Part shown: in pieces, positions 5,372 through 40,905 of the stretch
Numbering within the stretch: position 1 is the stretch's first letter
Layout of the letters: each line of letters opens with the position of its first letter
Assembly (NCBI RefSeq): GCF_001955655.1
Contig: NZ_MSPW01000009.1
Location: forward strand, 1 to 64,000
DNA: 64,000 nt
Reading direction: 5' to 3'
From: Viridibacillus arenosi
GTDB lineage: Bacteria > Bacillota > Bacilli > Bacillales_A > Planococcaceae
Translations under genes and position numbers: made by a program
Notes under the pieces: model-generated
What the model saw: only the letters and a program-made list of their open reading frames with translations
Database searches by the model: none
What the model was told of the DNA's origin: nothing

Positions 5372-6264
5372 AGTATCCCTCCACTTTTCTGCCCCTATTA
5401 CAAAATAACTCTACACTTACAACTTATGTGAATTCCGTTAAAAATAGCTCCTATTTTTTCGAGAATCAGAAGCTTTCAAAATAATTTCTCTACTTACATT
5501 TTTAGTGAATTCCAATATAATCTAACCTAACAAAATTCACAAATACAGGTAATACTTGAATCAGAATTTAAGTGTATATTATAGAATTTGCGATATTTTT
5601 TTATTATTTCAACTGTTTATTTAATGTATATTTATTTGTTCTTAAAATTTAACAGTAAAATATCACCATTCATTATCAAGCTATCATTTCCATATTTTTT
5701 GTTTCAATTCTTGAAATTACTCCTACTCACTTCCTTAAATAATAATTTCATAATTTCATATCTCTCTAGTCTTTTTCTCCCTTCAAGTGAGAAGAATGAC
5801 TTTTTTCATCTTTTTTACACATTTATTGTCGAATTGAACTTTTACCTACATTAGACAAAAATCCCCTTTTTATATTTTTGTATTTTTATTCAATATAACT
5901 AATTTAAAACCATAAAATTTGATATCTATTAATTATTCCAAAAGTTAAGCAAAGAACGGAAAAATGAATATAAATTTTATCTTTCTATAATTTGTCCTAT
6001 AAAAAAATTAGTTACACAAAAATTCACTAATATAAGATAAATATTTTAATTACAAAATTAGCTACTTTAAATCATTTATTTCTACAAAAACATACGTTTC
6101 TATATACATTGATTATAGGAAAATACAAACTTTCTGTAACACAGAAATTTTAAAAGCTTTACTATGTTCAAAGAATTAATGTAGAATTACAGCTTGTGAC
6201 CGAACGGACATTATTTAGACACAAAATAATATACGGTTTTTATGCACAGAAGGGAGGAGAAGGT
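5372..6264. other. Long AT-rich intergenic region
   Basis: About 890 bp between the divergent cls and GMC-cluster starts. It is very AT-rich, with short open frames made mostly of F, L, I, S and Y codons and no ribosome sites. It must hold both promoters. I see no hairpin, operator or RNA that I can support. Confidence 0.6.
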
Positions 6265-6519
6265 ATGTCGGAATATGGACAAGAGGAACTTTCTGCGCTT
6301 GTACAAAATGTAGCTGCAATCGTATTCATGTCAGCTTTTGTCATGGGAGCATATAAATATTTTACTATCGTGCCATGGCTAACAATTATTGGAGTAGCAG
6401 TAGGTCTAGGCATTATTATTATGAGTTGGGCAGGAAAGAAGAACGCATTTTTTGTTGGATCACTAATTTTGATGTCAATCGTGTTAGTCATCTACCACAA
6501 TTTTTCATCAATCTTTTAG
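6265..6519 (+). CDS. Small three-helix membrane protein, putative anchor of the GMC oxidoreductase
   Basis: 84 residues. I chose the ATG at 6265 because GGGAGGAGAAGG (6250-6261) lies right before it; an upstream ATG-free extension in frame has no such site. There are three hydrophobic helices, about residues 14-30, 36-52 and 60-78 (VAAIVFMSAFVMG, WLTIIGVAVGLGIIIMSW, FFVGSLILMSIVLVIY). There is no haem motif CxxCH and no cysteine at all. It is the first gene of a three-gene cluster with a Tat-exported subunit and a GMC flavoprotein, 24 bp from the next start. I infer a membrane anchor or electron-transfer partner. I do not recognise the family. Confidence 0.7.
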   Translation: MSEYGQEELSALVQNVAAIVFMSAFVMGAYKYFTIVPWLTIIGVAVGLGIIIMSWAGKKNAFFVGSLILMSIVLVIYHNFSSIF

Positions 6520-6543
6520 AAAAATAGATTTGGAGGTCTTATT

Positions 6544-7314
6544 ATGGCAGCAAAAGATAACAAACAATCACATGTTGAGTCGAATTCAAGACGGGATTTC
6601 ATAAAAAATTCCGGGTTAACACTTGGTGGCTTAGTACTTGGTGGAGCTTTCGGCGGTTTATTGAACGTCAACAGCAAATCAAAAGCGGATTCAGCCGACA
6701 ATAAATCAAACAAACCACAACTTACTGCAAACCCAAACGTTGCATTAATGTTTTTTACACAAGAAGAATACAACTTAACACAAGCAGCTGCAGATCGTAT
6801 TTACCCTGCTGACGACAATGGTCCAGGGGCTAAAGATTTAAACGCAGCTATATACATCGACCATCAATTAGCAGGATCATACGGCATTAACGCCAAGGAT
6901 TATCGTTTCGGACCTTACTATGAAGGACGTGAAACTGCTGGTACACAAACAAAAATGCTTCGTAAAGATATCTTCTTAACAGGATTGAAAGCATTAGATA
7001 CTTATAGTCAAAAACACTTCAAAGATAAATTCACTGCATTAGATACGGAAAAACAAGATAAAGTTTTAACAGCATTCAGCGAAGGAAAAGTGAAACTTTA
7101 TGGCAATGTCCCATCTACTGAATTCTTCGGATTACTTCGTTCGTTAACAATCGAAGGTGTCTATGCAGACCCAATGTATGGCGGTAACAAAGACATGTTA
7201 GGTTGGAAAATGAGAAAATATCCAGGCTCTCGCATGAATTATAACCAAGAAATTATGAGTGAAAAATTCGTCACACTTGAACCACAAGGCTTAAATAGCC
7301 ATATGAATCACTGA
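6544..7314 (+). CDS. Gluconate 2-dehydrogenase subunit 3 family protein, Tat-exported
   Basis: 256 residues. A twin-arginine signal is plain: SRRDFIK at residues 15-21, then a hydrophobic stretch GLTLGGLVLGGAFGGLL (about 24-40). The mature part contains FFTQEEYNLTQAAADRIYPADDNGPGAKDLNAAIYIDHQLAG, typical of the small (gamma) subunit of FAD-dependent gluconate, glucose and sorbitol dehydrogenases. In those enzymes this subunit carries the Tat signal and takes the signal-less catalytic subunit through the membrane with it. The start follows TTGGAGG. The GMC gene begins 21 bp after its stop, consistent with one complex. Confidence 0.9.
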   Translation: MAAKDNKQSHVESNSRRDFIKNSGLTLGGLVLGGAFGGLLNVNSKSKADSADNKSNKPQLTANPNVALMFFTQEEYNLTQAAADRIYPADDNGPGAKDLNAAIYIDHQLAGSYGINAKDYRFGPYYEGRETAGTQTKMLRKDIFLTGLKALDTYSQKHFKDKFTALDTEKQDKVLTAFSEGKVKLYGNVPSTEFFGLLRSLTIEGVYADPMYGGNKDMLGWKMRKYPGSRMNYNQEIMSEKFVTLEPQGLNSHMNH

Positions 7315-7335
7315 TAACAGAAAGGATTGAATTAC

Positions 7336-9060
7336 ATGGCAAAAAAATTATCAAAAGTACCAGTAGTCGTAGTAGGTATGGGCTGGGCAGGCGGCATTAT
7401 CTCTGCTGAACTAACAAAAGCAGGTATCAATGTTGTTGGACTTGAACGTGGTAAAGAGCGTTCTACTGCAGATTACTTTATGGGTCACGATGAACTTCGT
7501 TATCAACACCGCACTGAACTGATGCAAGATTTAGCAAAAGAGACAATTACACACCGTAATTCCCCTGATCAACGTGCACTTCCAATGCGTCGCTACGGTA
7601 CATTCATCATCGGTGATGGTGTTGGTGGCGCCGGCAGTCACTGGAACGGACAAACTTACCGCTTCTTGCCTTATGACTTTGAAATAAAAACAATGACAGA
7701 GAAAAAATATGGCAAAGGCAAAATCAAATCTGATATGCCAATTCAAGACTGGGGTATCACATATGATGAACTAGAGCCTTACTACGATACATTCGAGAAA
7801 ATGGCTGGTACCTCTGGAGAAACAGTAGAACTTTACGGTAAACGTAAAAATGATTACCCTACTGGCCCTATGAAAAAAACACCGACACTTGAAGTATTTG
7901 AAGCCGCTACTAAGAACTTAGGCTACAAGCCATACATGGTATCTTCAGGAAACTTATCTGAATCCTATACAAATCCAGATGGTATAGCTCGCGGTGCTTG
8001 TCAATATTGCGCTTATTGCGAAAACTTTGGTTGTGAATACGGCGCTAAGGCTGATCCTGTCGTAACTGTTCTCCCAGTAGCACAGAAAACAGGTAAACTT
8101 GATTTACGTACACATGCAAATGTATTAAAAGTTACAAAAAACAGCACTAAAGCAACTGGTGTAATTTACGTTGATACTATGACAGGCATCGAATATGAAC
8201 AACCAGCAGATGTTGTCGTAGTAGCAAGTTATGTATTTAATAATGCAAAACTTTTATTAACATCTGGTTTGGGTGAAGCCTACAATCCTAAAACTGGTAA
8301 AGGTACAGTTGGTAAAAACTATTGCTACCAAGTAAGTTCAGGTTGGTCTACAGCTTTGTTTGATAATCAAGAATTCAATACTTATGCTGGTGCTGGTGCG
8401 CTTGGTATGGAAATTCCTGAGTATACTGGCGATCACTTTGACCATAAAAACCTTGACTTTATTCACGGTGCTGGTATTCGCATGTTCCAATATGGTAATC
8501 GACCGATTGCAAACAATGTTGTTCCTGAAGGTACACCAAACTGGGGTCCAGAATTCAAAAAAGCGTCAATCAAATATGCGAATAGTTGGTTGAAAGTTGC
8601 TTCTCAAGGCGCTTCAATGCCTCATATTAATAACTATTTAGATCTTGATCCAACATACAAAGATGAATATGGCATGCCTATACTTCGTATGACTTATGAC
8701 TATACTGATCAAGATAAAGCCCTAGTAAAATATATGGCAAAAGTGACTAATAAAATTGCGAAAGAAATGGGTGCTGACCACATCATCACTGCTGGAGAGC
8801 AAGGACCGTTTAACGTAAACAAAGATACAAATACACATAACACTGGTGGGGTTATTATGGGTGCTGATCGTGAAACTTCAGTGCTTAATAGCTATCTACA
8901 AATGTGGGATGTTGACAATGTATTCGTTGTTGGAGCTTCAGCTTTCCCTCACAACAGTTGCTTCAACCCTACTGGAACTCTAGGAGCATTGTCATACCGT
9001 GCTGCGGAAGGTATCGAAAAATATCTAAAGGATGGCGGATCTTTAGTTAAAGTAAAATAA
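7336..9060 (+). CDS. GMC-family FAD-dependent oxidoreductase, catalytic subunit
   Basis: 574 residues from the ATG at 7336 (GAAAGGA upstream); an in-frame TTG at 7327 lies too close to that site. The FAD-binding GMGWAGG motif is at about 14-20 and E37 follows in the second strand. GVGGAGSHWNGQTYRF is the GMC signature region. Cysteines 222, 225, 228 and 233 (CQYCAYCENFGC) match the region that binds a [3Fe-4S] cluster in FAD-glucose dehydrogenase-type enzymes. The C-terminal NTHNTGGVIMG and FPHNSCFNPTGTLG segments carry the active-site His/Asn. There is no signal peptide, so export probably relies on the Tat subunit. It should oxidise a sugar, sugar acid or other alcohol outside the membrane; the substrate is unknown. 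Confidence 0.92.
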   Translation: MAKKLSKVPVVVVGMGWAGGIISAELTKAGINVVGLERGKERSTADYFMGHDELRYQHRTELMQDLAKETITHRNSPDQRALPMRRYGTFIIGDGVGGAGSHWNGQTYRFLPYDFEIKTMTEKKYGKGKIKSDMPIQDWGITYDELEPYYDTFEKMAGTSGETVELYGKRKNDYPTGPMKKTPTLEVFEAATKNLGYKPYMVSSGNLSESYTNPDGIARGACQYCAYCENFGCEYGAKADPVVTVLPVAQKTGKLDLRTHANVLKVTKNSTKATGVIYVDTMTGIEYEQPADVVVVASYVFNNAKLLLTSGLGEAYNPKTGKGTVGKNYCYQVSSGWSTALFDNQEFNTYAGAGALGMEIPEYTGDHFDHKNLDFIHGAGIRMFQYGNRPIANNVVPEGTPNWGPEFKKASIKYANSWLKVASQGASMPHINNYLDLDPTYKDEYGMPILRMTYDYTDQDKALVKYMAKVTNKIAKEMGADHIITAGEQGPFNVNKDTNTHNTGGVIMGADRETSVLNSYLQMWDVDNVFVVGASAFPHNSCFNPTGTLGALSYRAAEGIEKYLKDGGSLVKVK

Positions 9061-9070
9061 TAAATATAAA

Positions 9071-9108
9071 AGCAGGAGTTGATTAAGATATCAATTCCTG
9101 CTTTTTTT
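9071..9108 (+). terminator. Terminator of the GMC cluster
   Basis: Stem AGCAGGAGTTGA / TCAATTCCTGCT (9071-9082, 9091-9102, one mismatch) followed by seven T, just after the GMC stop codon. Confidence 0.9.
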
Positions 9109-9488
9109 ATTCATTTTAAGTTCTTAATAACTAAATGGTTATGAATATATGTCAATATTTCTATTTTTAATTTTGGAATAAGAGAATTATACTAAAATCA
9201 CCTTAAAAACTTCGGTATAGAACAATTATTCGCGAAAATTGTTCTAATCATGAACTACAAAGAAACAATTACACAATGAATAACAGGAAAAAATTATTAC
9301 TTTAGCAAGTTAGATACATCACACATGGAAAAATACATTTATAAAATTATTTAGGCCAATACTATTTTATTCCTGTGTAATTGATTTACAAAAACAAAAA
9401 AATTAAAACTCAAAATTATATATAGCTTTAAAGTATGCTAAACAAACAAATTTGCACATAATTGATTATACTAACTGTATTACAAAAT
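9109..9488. other. AT-rich gap before the LysR gene
   Basis: No coding signal on either strand. It should contain the LysR promoter. Nothing further is supportable. Confidence 0.5.
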
Positions 9489-9503
9489 AAGGTGGTGCTT
9501 TTC

Positions 9504-10394
9504 ATAGACATATTGCAATTGCGCTATTTTCAAGTAACTGCTAAGCATGAGCATTTGACTCGAGCAGCTGCCGAATTGAATATTTCACAGCCAGCCTTAA
9601 GCAAAATGATTGCAAAATTAGAAGAAAACATCGGTTATGAGTTATTTGATCGAATTGGTAGAAATATAAAATTAAATAAATTTGGGGACAGTTATTTAAG
9701 AACTGTTGAAAATATATTCCTTATGCTACAAGAAGGCGAATTAGAATTAGATCAGCTCGCTGGGAAACAAAGCAATATACTTTCTATTTCTGTCACAATA
9801 CCAACTATTCTTCCTGAACTTTTAGGTGAATTTATTGAATTACAACCAGAAGCTCGTTTCCGCCAACGACAAGTAATGCCATCACAAATCAAAAGACAAA
9901 TTGAAACTGGTGAAATCGATCTTTGCATATCAACACAACCTGTTTTTGGTAATGATATAGAATGGATGCCACTTATTGAAGAAGAAATTCAGCTTGCAGT
10001 TCCTCTATCTCATCCTCTTGCTAAATATAATGAGATTCAATTAAAAGAGTTAGTAAACGAACCCTTTATCGTCATGCCGAAAGGATATCAATTCCGTGAA
10101 ATGACAGAACTATATTGTATGAAAGCTGGTTTCTACCCAAAGATTGCCTTTGAGGGTGAAGAAACAGGCGTTACTTATCAATTGGTTGAGCATGGCTTGG
10201 GCATTGCTTTTTATCCAAATTCCCTATCCGCAAAACGCATTCGACATTTAAACATAGCGAAACTAAAAATCGTAGAACCATCTTGTACAAGAACAGTTGG
10301 ACTAGTATGGAACAAAAAAAGAATTCAGTCCCCTATGCTAGAACACTTCATTCAATTTACTGCACAATATTTAAAAAAGCATTATGAACAATAA
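9504..10394 (+). CDS. LysR-family transcriptional regulator with an apparent ATA start
   Basis: 296 residues counted from codon 9504. The N-terminal winged helix-turn-helix is clear (LTRAAAELNISQPALSKMIAKLE, about 18-40), followed by a substrate-binding domain to the end; length is normal. Family members normally begin MD-x-LQLRYF. Here IDILQLRYF is encoded with ATA at 9504, and AAGGTGG (9489-9495) is 8 bases before it, the ideal place. The nearest conventional in-frame starts are GTG 9492/9495 (overlapping the ribosome site), TTG 9513 (too far) or TTG 9462 (no site). The ATG may have mutated to ATA and expression may be low. Its target is unknown; the GMC cluster upstream is one candidate. 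Confidence 0.85.
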   Translation: MDILQLRYFQVTAKHEHLTRAAAELNISQPALSKMIAKLEENIGYELFDRIGRNIKLNKFGDSYLRTVENIFLMLQEGELELDQLAGKQSNILSISVTIPTILPELLGEFIELQPEARFRQRQVMPSQIKRQIETGEIDLCISTQPVFGNDIEWMPLIEEEIQLAVPLSHPLAKYNEIQLKELVNEPFIVMPKGYQFREMTELYCMKAGFYPKIAFEGEETGVTYQLVEHGLGIAFYPNSLSAKRIRHLNIAKLKIVEPSCTRTVGLVWNKKRIQSPMLEHFIQFTAQYLKKHYEQ

Positions 10395-14212: not shown

Positions 14213-14337
14213 CGATTTTCATAAAATTAATACCTATTAGGTTTAAATTAGTTCTAAAATATTTATTTTATAAAGTGATGCTTGCCCTTACCAATTATTT
14301 TGAAGTGAATAGCATGATAATAATAGGAGGTGAAATA

Positions 14338-15108
14338 ATGAATTATGAGATAAAAAGATGTAATAAGTGCAGTAAATATATCTGTACTTGTAACAATGAC
14401 CCTGCTCGAGGTCCAAGAGGGAATAAAGGTACTATTGGCCCTGTTGGACCTCCTGGCCCTCAAGGACTTAAAGGTGACCGAGGTCCTAGGGGATTCATGG
14501 GTCTTCCTGGAGCTGATGGTGAACGTGGGCATAGAGGCGCCGAGGGCGAACAAGGACCTATGGGTTTAAGAGGTCTCCCTGGAGTGGCTGGGCCTGGCTC
14601 AATAATTCCTTTCGCATCAGGTGTTCCTGTTAAACTTACAACTGTTGGTGGACACATTGGAACAACTAGTTTAATCGGCTTTGGGAACTCTGCATCAAAC
14701 GTTAAGTTAGATGGGACAAAAATAAATCTTACAGGTTCTGCTGGCGCACTTCTGAATTTTGCATTTTCTATTCCTCGTGATGGAAAAATCACTTCGATGG
14801 ATGCTTTCTTCAGTACTTCAGAGGCTCTATCTCTAGTTAATTCCACCATCACAATTACAGCTCAATTATATCAATCAACAACACCAAATAATCTATTCAC
14901 TCCTGTCCCAGGCGCTACTGTAACATTATTTCCTAAACTCTCTGGCAATCTTCCTCTAGGTTATGTCAGTCACGGAATCACTACAGGATTAAATATAATG
15001 GTAACAGCACAAACACGACTATTGATGGTATTTTCTGCTGCAGCCACTGGTCATTCACTCGATAATATGGTAGGTGGGTATGCTAGCGCAGGTCTTTCAA
15101 TTAGTTAA
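14338..15108 (+). CDS. Collagen-like exosporium protein with BclB-type C-terminal domain
   Basis: 256 residues from the ATG at 14338, which follows AGGAGGTGAAATA. A short N-terminus with [11 protein letters not shown] (about 8-18) precedes roughly 20 collagen-type G-X-Y triplets (about 25-87, with a few imperfect). The C-terminal domain starting [15 protein letters not shown] and continuing through [23 protein letters not shown] and [20 protein letters not shown] matches the BclB-related exosporium glycoprotein domain. Such proteins form hair-like filaments on the outermost spore layer. The collagen part is short compared with many Bcl proteins. It stands alone, presumably expressed in the mother cell late in sporulation (inference). 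Confidence 0.9.
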
Positions 15109-19120: not shown

Positions 19121-19606
19121 CTATAAACAAACAGCAGGCAGACATTGAATGCCTGTGAAGCTTGAAATATCAACTGTTATACATACACATGTTGAAATCA
19201 AATCTTCTACATCTTCACAATCAAGCTGACAACAAGGGGAGCATATATGATCTTTAGTATTAGCAACACATTTATTATGGTTTTTAAATTTTAATAATTC
19301 CAAAACTACACAGTCATCCTTTAATTCTACTATTTTGAAAATGAATGTTAAAAAACAAACAAATTTTTCTTTTTTTGAACAATCGTCAAAGCAAGTAGTC
19401 ACGCCTTCAACCTTAAACGCTTCACAATTACAATATAAAATAAAAGGTATTGTATTGTTCTTATTTGGTTTAAATAACTCTCCAAGTGGTGACTGGCATG
19501 AAAATTCGCAGTTATCATTCTTTTTCTTCCTAACATTTCTTTGTTCATGTAGTATTTTTTCCAATGTCTTTTTTACACATTTACTATCATTGTGACACTT
19601 CTCCAC
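19121..19606 (-). CDS. CotY/CotZ-family spore coat protein (orphan copy)
   Basis: 161 residues from a GTG at 19606 with AAAGGAG upstream. It is cysteine-rich (about 17 Cys) with the CotY/CotZ pattern: charged N-terminus, a middle part PFILYCNCEAFKVEG, a KIVELKDDCVVLELLKF strand, then CQLDCEDVEDLISTCVCITV and a C-terminal QCLPAVCL. Proteins of this family cross-link by disulfides into crystalline arrays in the crust or exosporium base layer. It is only distantly like the second copy at 40387 and is not next to other coat genes. It flanks the decayed IS region. Confidence 0.85.
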   Translation of the reverse strand: MEKCHNDSKCVKKTLEKILHEQRNVRKKKNDNCEFSCQSPLGELFKPNKNNTIPFILYCNCEAFKVEGVTTCFDDCSKKEKFVCFLTFIFKIVELKDDCVVLELLKFKNHNKCVANTKDHICSPCCQLDCEDVEDLISTCVCITVDISSFTGIQCLPAVCL

Positions 19607-40308: not shown

Positions 40309-40386
40309 TAACTGAGGCAGTTGCCCTAGTTCATTTTCTAAAAAGACATATTGTATAAGGAGATTGAAAAGGGGGTGAAATTAAAA

Positions 40387-40905
40387 ATGGGATGCGGAAG
40401 AAATGATAATGCAGTAGGTCACAAAGTTTCAAAAGGATGTGTTTGCGACGTAGTACGCGCAATTAAAGACATTCAAGACCAAAACGTTGATGACGGTTGT
40501 GGCCCTTGCCCAACTAACTGTTTCCTAGAACCTCTTGGCGGATTAGTAAGCCCTGCACGAACACAAGCTAATACACGTGTATTTATGCTATTAAACAAAG
40601 ACGGTACTCCTTTTAAAGCGTTTTTCAGAACTAATGCTTCTGGCGATCATCACTGTTTCTCGGTCTTTTTCCGAGTAGAGGATATTTTCGACGGTTGCTG
40701 TGCTACTTTACGTGTATTAATTCCTTTAAAACACGGTAATCATGTAGCTGATTTGTTAACAGATTGCGGCAATGAAGTAGATTTATCAATGATTTGTAAA
40801 GTTGTAAATTGGGAAGCATCTACTAGCTGTGTTACTGTTGACTTAAATTGCTTCTGTGCAGTTCAATGTATAAAAGACGTCTTTTTAGAAGATGTATGCG
40901 ACTAA
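40387..40905 (+). CDS. CotZ/CotY-type spore coat (exosporium base) protein
   Basis: 172 residues from ATG 40387 (AAGGGGG upstream). It is cysteine-rich with the CotZ/ExsY pattern: VCDVVRAIKDIQDQNVDDGCGPCPTNCFLEPLG at the start, FSVFFRVEDIFDGCCATLRVLIPL in the middle and CVTVDLNCFCAVQCIKDVF at the end. Proteins of this family self-assemble into disulfide-linked two-dimensional lattices. CATATTGTA (40346-40354) just upstream fits a sigma-K -10 element. It is divergent from the spoVA operon. Confidence 0.93.
   Translation: MGCGRNDNAVGHKVSKGCVCDVVRAIKDIQDQNVDDGCGPCPTNCFLEPLGGLVSPARTQANTRVFMLLNKDGTPFKAFFRTNASGDHHCFSVFFRVEDIFDGCCATLRVLIPLKHGNHVADLLTDCGNEVDLSMICKVVNWEASTSCVTVDLNCFCAVQCIKDVFLEDVCD

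Follow-up and report, generated by a model that had tools for sequence, protein, structure and literature searches.

A small membrane protein family that accompanies many, though not all, g3-GMC dehydrogenase modules in Planococcaceae

Introduction

Why should a gene cluster for an FAD-dependent dehydrogenase begin with a gene for an 84-residue hydrophobic protein, and does that protein take the place of a cytochrome? Bacterial FAD-dependent glucose dehydrogenases have an alpha, beta, gamma make-up (PMC8348568, in the part available), and three-subunit FAD dehydrogenases as well as cofactor-free, membrane-binding subunits have been described (PMC9171043, in the part available). The locus that raises the question comes from a Gram-positive bacterium and lies in what we call the window, the whole 64-kb stretch of DNA analysed here, and the original prediction had read its small protein as a stand-in for the cytochrome subunit. 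We examined the locus, the family to which the small protein belongs and the modules with and without it.

Results

The unit proposed at 6265-9060 is real, as judged from its ORFs and from the domain matches of its second and third products, and its three genes lie on the + strand with intergenic gaps of 24 and 21 bases. The first gene (small; 6265..6519, with ATG at 6265 and stop at 6517-6519), delimited by its ORF and by family alignments, encodes the 84-aa hydrophobic membrane protein, Small, and follows a purine-rich stretch (6253..6264, same strand) that is a probable ribosome-binding site. The second (g3; 6544..7314) encodes a 256-aa member of the Gluconate_2-dh3 (Gluconate 2-dehydrogenase subunit 3) family, which matches PF13618 with E 1.2e-31 and scored over the cut-off of a Tat-signal model, and the third (gmc; 7336..9060) a GMC-family FAD dehydrogenase, 574 aa long from that ATG, with matches to GMC_oxred_N and GMC_oxred_C. 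A 16-pair stem and T run straight after the gmc stop (9068..9105, +) may be an intrinsic terminator closing the unit; because terminator-like sites were no more numerous than in shuffles (one observed, mean 1.7), it is position alone that argues for it. Outside the unit, the + strand ORF at 9462..10394 presumably encodes a LysR-type regulator. No CxxCH ORF of at least 60 aa was found in the whole window, in keeping with the expectation that the pair has no cytochrome gene beside it.

The enzyme is probably a sugar or alcohol dehydrogenase. The solved sequences nearest to its GMC protein are 6a2u (Burkholderia cepacia FAD-glucose dehydrogenase) and 7w2j (fructose dehydrogenase), and a fold search with a fused model of the predicted complex (pTM 0.73) agreed with this result, returning 8k6k, 8jej and 6a2u at target-normalised TM 0.77-0.79. 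Cysteines 222, 225, 228 and 233, already singled out in the original prediction, were invariant in all 84 distinct GMC homologues collected. Three of them (222, 228 and 233) align with cysteines of 6a2u that we take to be [3Fe-4S] ligands, Cys 225 being extra, and the cluster in the GMC protein could be [4Fe-4S].

A genome of the same genus, G005, has syntenic flanks and, between sequences matching window positions 5498 and 10193, a remnant that resembles window 6511-6634 with changes and includes a scar of the g3 start. G005 has thus lost the module together with most of the neighbouring regulator gene, and given this scar between the same flanks a recent gain of the module in the window's genome is unlikely. 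Genome G024 has neither small nor PF13618.

Small represents a real, so far undescribed protein family, present as a single copy in the window's genome. Among 200 genomes searched within the same bacterial family, 38 gave a match; the profile failed to confirm G060 and G125, leaving 36; one of these, G187, is 76 % complete and has its small gene at a contig end. Scanning named genomes with 18 close members as queries gave 37 loci, many overlapping the 200-genome set, in Lysinibacillus, Ureibacillus, Planococcus, Psychrobacillus, one 'Bacillus sp.' and one Peribacillus simplex. An order-wide search of 261 genomes found 46 with a match, and among the matches listed all fell in one family. A class-wide sample of 398 genomes, in which at most 13 candidates per genome were scored so that copies can be missed, yielded three matches, all within the own bacterial family; one of the three, a partial match to G003 (E 5e-4), was dismissed as chance. 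That small is itself a chance ORF can be ruled out, since its relatives (27-44 % identity) mostly occupy the same place and have dN/dS values of 0.03-0.22 in 11 pairs of relatives, detached copies included and the window copy not among them, with synonymous change saturated in some pairs.

The window copy has every element of the family pattern (about 84 aa, with Y4, E8, L9, G47, L48, W55 and F63), W55 being missing from the solo copies in G116 and G140. The absence of cysteine noted at the outset holds for the window copy and three others but is no family trait, 25 of the 29 aligned members having one or two. The three helices originally proposed rest on hydropathy, whose maxima around residues 19, 44 and 69 suggest three crossings; the AlphaFold2 model, of moderate confidence (mean pLDDT 75.6), has two long helices (3-33 and 38-83). 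No histidine is invariant across the 29 members, which speaks against haem b. On an assumed topology, mean conservation peaks at the cytoplasmic N-terminus (0.77) and the inner half of helix 2 (0.81), the contrast between inner and outer parts being not significant (p 0.14).

Comparisons with known proteins gave no family for the window copy in Pfam or PHROGs and one NCBIfam match that we took as chance (E 0.0054, far below its cut-off); the best of the weak Pfam matches among its relatives was to DUF6358 (E 0.0011, 4/29 members). The best sequence match to a solved structure (E 0.73) was likewise taken as chance, Foldseek returned nothing below E 3.7, and the best VIA-align score (Z 7.4) lies within that tool's common range for helical bundles, so that we claim no relative. 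A kinship with TatC, with which Small shares an N-terminal E-L, was rejected after hhalign gave a probability of 0.2 % over two aligned columns. A search of PubMed Central by titles and starts of abstracts found no paper on the small/g3/GMC arrangement.

The predicted co-occurrence of small with g3 and GMC was borne out. PF13618 occurs in 136 of the 200 genomes, including all 35 near-complete ones that bear small, so that small is found in 35/136 g3-bearing genomes versus 1/64 others, the one being the 76 % complete G187 (p = 6e-6, 2x2 table). Across those 35 genomes 70 small copies stand against 93 g3 copies, and small never exceeds g3. Inspecting the neighbourhoods of all 71 copies in the 36 genomes placed 61 of them in one cluster with a g3-gmc pair. 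Most of these immediately precede the pair; in G159 tat genes intervene, and on contig C27 of G172 small comes after g3-gmc-tatC-tatA. Among the 37 named loci, 32 have the pair (18 with and 14 without tat genes in range) and five have tat genes only, one of these loci being cut.

The remaining 10 of the 71 copies lack a pair that belongs to them. Seven of these adjoin tat genes (in G041, G112, G118, G142, G168, G128, where the copy is disrupted, and G187, at the contig end), one is an additional copy preceding a complete module in G172, and those in G116 and G140 lie in a shared neighbourhood that for several kb contains no pair and no tat genes. Intact unpaired copies occur in eight genomes, six of which (G041, G112, G116, G118, G142 and G168) own a lone small-type pair, typed in G116 by g3 similarity, and so look like cases of one module split in two. 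In G140 and G172 small copies outnumber small-type pairs by one, which led us to reject a strict one-to-one link. Split modules therefore account for most, not all, detached copies, and the ten unpaired copies, two of them also far from tat genes, argue against a strict tie.

The distribution of small follows the GMC tree. This tree holds 84 distinct GMC proteins from loci that were chosen rather than drawn at random, some later loci not having been added, and some of its deep branches are weak. In a clade of Tat-operon GMC proteins small is adjacent in 0/26 and tat genes lie downstream in 22/26, and in a third clade small is adjacent in 0/7. Among the remaining proteins, which do not form one clade, it is adjacent in 44/51. 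Six of the seven exceptions (G041, G112 twice, G118, G142 and G168) belong to genomes that have small at another place, and the seventh, L102 in G045, is a small-type pair whose genome yielded no small gene. The window's genome holds g3-gmc-tatA-tatC modules without small on two further contigs, C39 and C40.

Unexpectedly, two TatC lineages accompany the modules and separate as the modules do: the 22 TatCs encoded downstream of gmc group in one clade and the 15 encoded next to small in another, which also takes in the TatCs of L054 and L102. The window's genome has a third TatC, on contig C6, which sits on a long branch as sister to the small-linked clade and not inside it, so that here small goes with the enzyme and not with that Tat lineage.

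The signal helices of g3 differ between the two module types, with consensus RRTFIKNSGLTVGGVVLGGALGSLL in the small type and RRDFLKTTGIATGTLVGGGIIGGLIG in 23 pairs with downstream tat genes. In the small type (n=44) conservation reaches 0.86 in the helix, against 0.66 in the mature part and 0.41 in the linker. The helix is equally conserved in the small-less type, and hence this feature is not specific to small. No A-x-A was found after the signal of the window's g3, and in the stretch scanned it is missing from 32/44 small-type and 37/40 other g3 proteins, which suggests that g3 is retained as a membrane anchor. Because both features are shared, small-less g3 is probably anchored without Small. 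A g3 query against viral contigs found no relative.

The idea that Small stands in for the cytochrome subunit was not supported by these comparisons. About 101 of the 136 g3-bearing genomes have g3 without small, and around the 38 small-less pairs read, too, the first 3.7 kb are free of CxxCH ORFs (only 0.2 kb being present on one side of L099), five of the 38 loci having one at 3.8-5.1 kb from the pair. A CxxCH ORF occurs at one of the 37 named small-bearing loci, L098 of Peribacillus simplex, where the order is small, c551, tatA, g3, gmc. The c551-like gene is on the opposite strand, and its 148-aa product closely resembles cytochrome c551 (110 bits in NCBIfam, short of the cut-off of 118). 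With both in one cluster, Small and a cytochrome are not strict alternatives. Moreover, a two-component gluconate dehydrogenase, Cj0414/Cj0415, has already been described in Campylobacter jejuni, its predicted electron acceptor being a periplasmic cytochrome c (PMC4178425, in the part available). In the window's genome five PF13442 proteins, which from their sequences we name QcrC-like, two-haem, c550-like, c551-like and CtaC-like, are all encoded on other contigs.

Discussion

Small is more aptly described as a membrane partner dedicated to g3-GMC modules, many of which have it and some of which do not. The reading that we prefer, at roughly even odds (about 0.5), is that the module comprises a Tat-exported FAD/Fe-S dehydrogenase of the gluconate/fructose/glucose kind with a dedicated small integral-membrane partner. 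For it we observed the gene content, the conservation, the co-occurrence, the distribution on the GMC tree, the cysteine set and the lack of a linked cytochrome in the window; export, anchoring, contact and electron flow are, at every step, what we infer from them. In this scheme g3 would bind the cofactor-loaded GMC protein while both are still in the cytoplasm, and the signal of g3 would carry the GMC protein through the Tat translocase. The conserved, probably uncleaved signal helix would remain in the membrane and hold the dimer on its outer face, where Small would adjoin the g3 anchor and might aid assembly, holding or stabilising of the complex. Electrons would pass from substrate to FAD, to the Fe-S cluster and on to the respiratory chain by way of a small cytochrome c550/c551 or menaquinone, direct menaquinone reduction by the complex being possible.

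A bolder form, which we put forward tentatively, makes Small a genuine third subunit in some of the g3-GMC dehydrogenases, where it would provide a quinone site free of haem, or an anchor site, at a Tat signal helix that stays in place permanently, in modules that in many species package their own Tat lineage. Just as doubtful is the claim that Small replaces the cytochrome subunit by forming a quinone site, the Fe-S electrons going straight to menaquinone. Haem-free quinone subunits of the NrfD/PsrC type occur in other enzymes, the family is membrane-embedded with conserved Y4, E8, Q14 and W55 that could line such a site, and the want of CxxCH ORFs, in the window and within 3.7 kb of the 38 small-less pairs, would fit. 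Yet small is absent from most g3-bearing genomes, Peribacillus simplex combines it with a c551-like gene, and no relative emerged by sequence or fold; the best-conserved zones are, on the assumed topology, cytoplasmic or inner rather than facing the Fe-S protein outside, although the inner-outer contrast is not significant (p 0.14).

That Small is instead a Tat-side accessory, helping the module's own TatA/TatC to insert or release the g3 signal anchor, we consider unlikely, for all that 23 of the 37 named small genes, including all five without an adjacent pair, have tat genes nearby (up to 3 kb upstream or 4 kb downstream). The split of small-linked and gmc-downstream TatCs into two clades (15 and 22), the different g3 signals of the two module types and the resemblance of E8-L9 to the N-terminal E-L of TatC would suit such a role. 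Against it, 14 of the 37 have a pair but no tat gene in range, two solo copies have no tat genes, and L102 combines a small-linked-type TatC and a small-type GMC protein with no small gene; the TatC of the window's genome that comes closest is only a long-branch sister of the small-linked clade, and the profile comparison with TatC was negative. Least probable of all is that electrons go to a separate c550/c551-type cytochrome while Small has an unrelated minor role, for although unlinked c550-like and c551-like genes (besides QcrC-like, CtaC-like and two-haem ones) are present in the genome, a c551-like gene sits within the Peribacillus module, the two-part C. jejuni enzyme is predicted to use a periplasmic cytochrome c (PMC4178425, in the part available) and two solo small genes exist, a CxxCH ORF at just 1/37 named small-bearing loci and the clustering and copy-number link call for a tighter tie.

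With Small, a widespread class of exported dehydrogenases gains a membrane protein family that had no annotation, and the tempting reading of a small protein instead of a cytochrome is put right. In this bacterial family, Planococcaceae by its named relatives, such enzymes also prove to come in two module types with separate Tat lineages.

In its GMC fold and Fe-S cysteine motif, the window's enzyme resembles fructose dehydrogenase (7w2j, 8jej), FAD-glucose dehydrogenase (6a2u) and gluconate 2-dehydrogenase, and it shares a Tat-exported small subunit (PF13618) with the flavoprotein-cytochrome c dehydrogenases (GADH/FDH/GDH). Unlike these, it has no multihaem cytochrome gene nearby, and it has one cysteine more in the motif and an extra hydrophobic 84-aa protein. 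Cj0414/Cj0415 of C. jejuni, likened here by description and not by sequence, is similarly a g3 and GMC pair with no linked cytochrome gene; its electrons are predicted to go to a periplasmic cytochrome c and not to a subunit of its own, and, unlike in the window's unit, a small membrane protein goes unmentioned in the available part of the source (PMC4178425). Subunit III of the alcohol dehydrogenase of acetic acid bacteria, also likened by description and not by sequence, is cofactor-free and may serve membrane binding (PMC9171043, in the part available), but belongs to a PQQ enzyme. Operons with the order g3-gmc-tatA-tatC also occur in this bacterial family, and the genome of the window itself has two. 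Their products have a Tat signal and 45-46 % (g3) and 59-61 % (GMC) identity; they differ in having no small, in their separate GMC and TatC clades and in their signal helix. With two such small-less modules in one genome, the role of Small is open to comparison within it.

Two dehydrogenase module types and their Tat partners

The V. arenosi genome carries two operons of the order g3-gmc-tatA-tatC, encoding a Tat-signal Gluconate_2-dh3 protein (g3), an FAD dehydrogenase (gmc) and Tat components, at loci L041 (6809-10397) and L042 (5061-8668), and operons of this kind were also seen at loci L101-L138. The TatC lineage of these operons (L041, L042 and L101-L138) is distinct from that of the TatCs adjoining small, the gene for the 84-residue membrane protein, and there are two types of dehydrogenase module, each with its own Tat type. 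In Peribacillus simplex (L098:5980-10049), small clusters with tatA, g3, gmc and, on the opposite strand, a c551-like cytochrome gene. Downstream of gmc, L089 (8909-10938) contains additional tatA ORFs together with a short fragment resembling g3, a hint of a decayed second module.

Loss of the module and detachment of small

Comparison with window positions 5498-10193 revealed a retained g3-start scar at L171 in the same-genus genome G005, marking the site of module loss. Solo small genes occur in G140 (L193:6017-6286) and G116 (L194:6161-6430), sharing as neighbours an esterase-like ORF, an 86-88-aa ORF and a transporter-like ORF, with no g3, gmc or tat genes near either. A disrupted copy (L196:5822-6007; G128:C1:3270336-3270548) adjoins tatA and tatC without the g3-gmc pair, and at L006 (243-1355) and L010 (1956-3092) a peptidase gene, of a peptidase T-like kind, adjoins a detached small gene and tatA.

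Other genes in the window

Elsewhere, the window encodes a collagen-like Gly-X-Y protein (14275-15108), reminiscent of spore-surface proteins, and two Cys-rich proteins (19121-19606 and 40351-40905), both of which are similar to CotY/CotZ-type spore coat/exosporium proteins.
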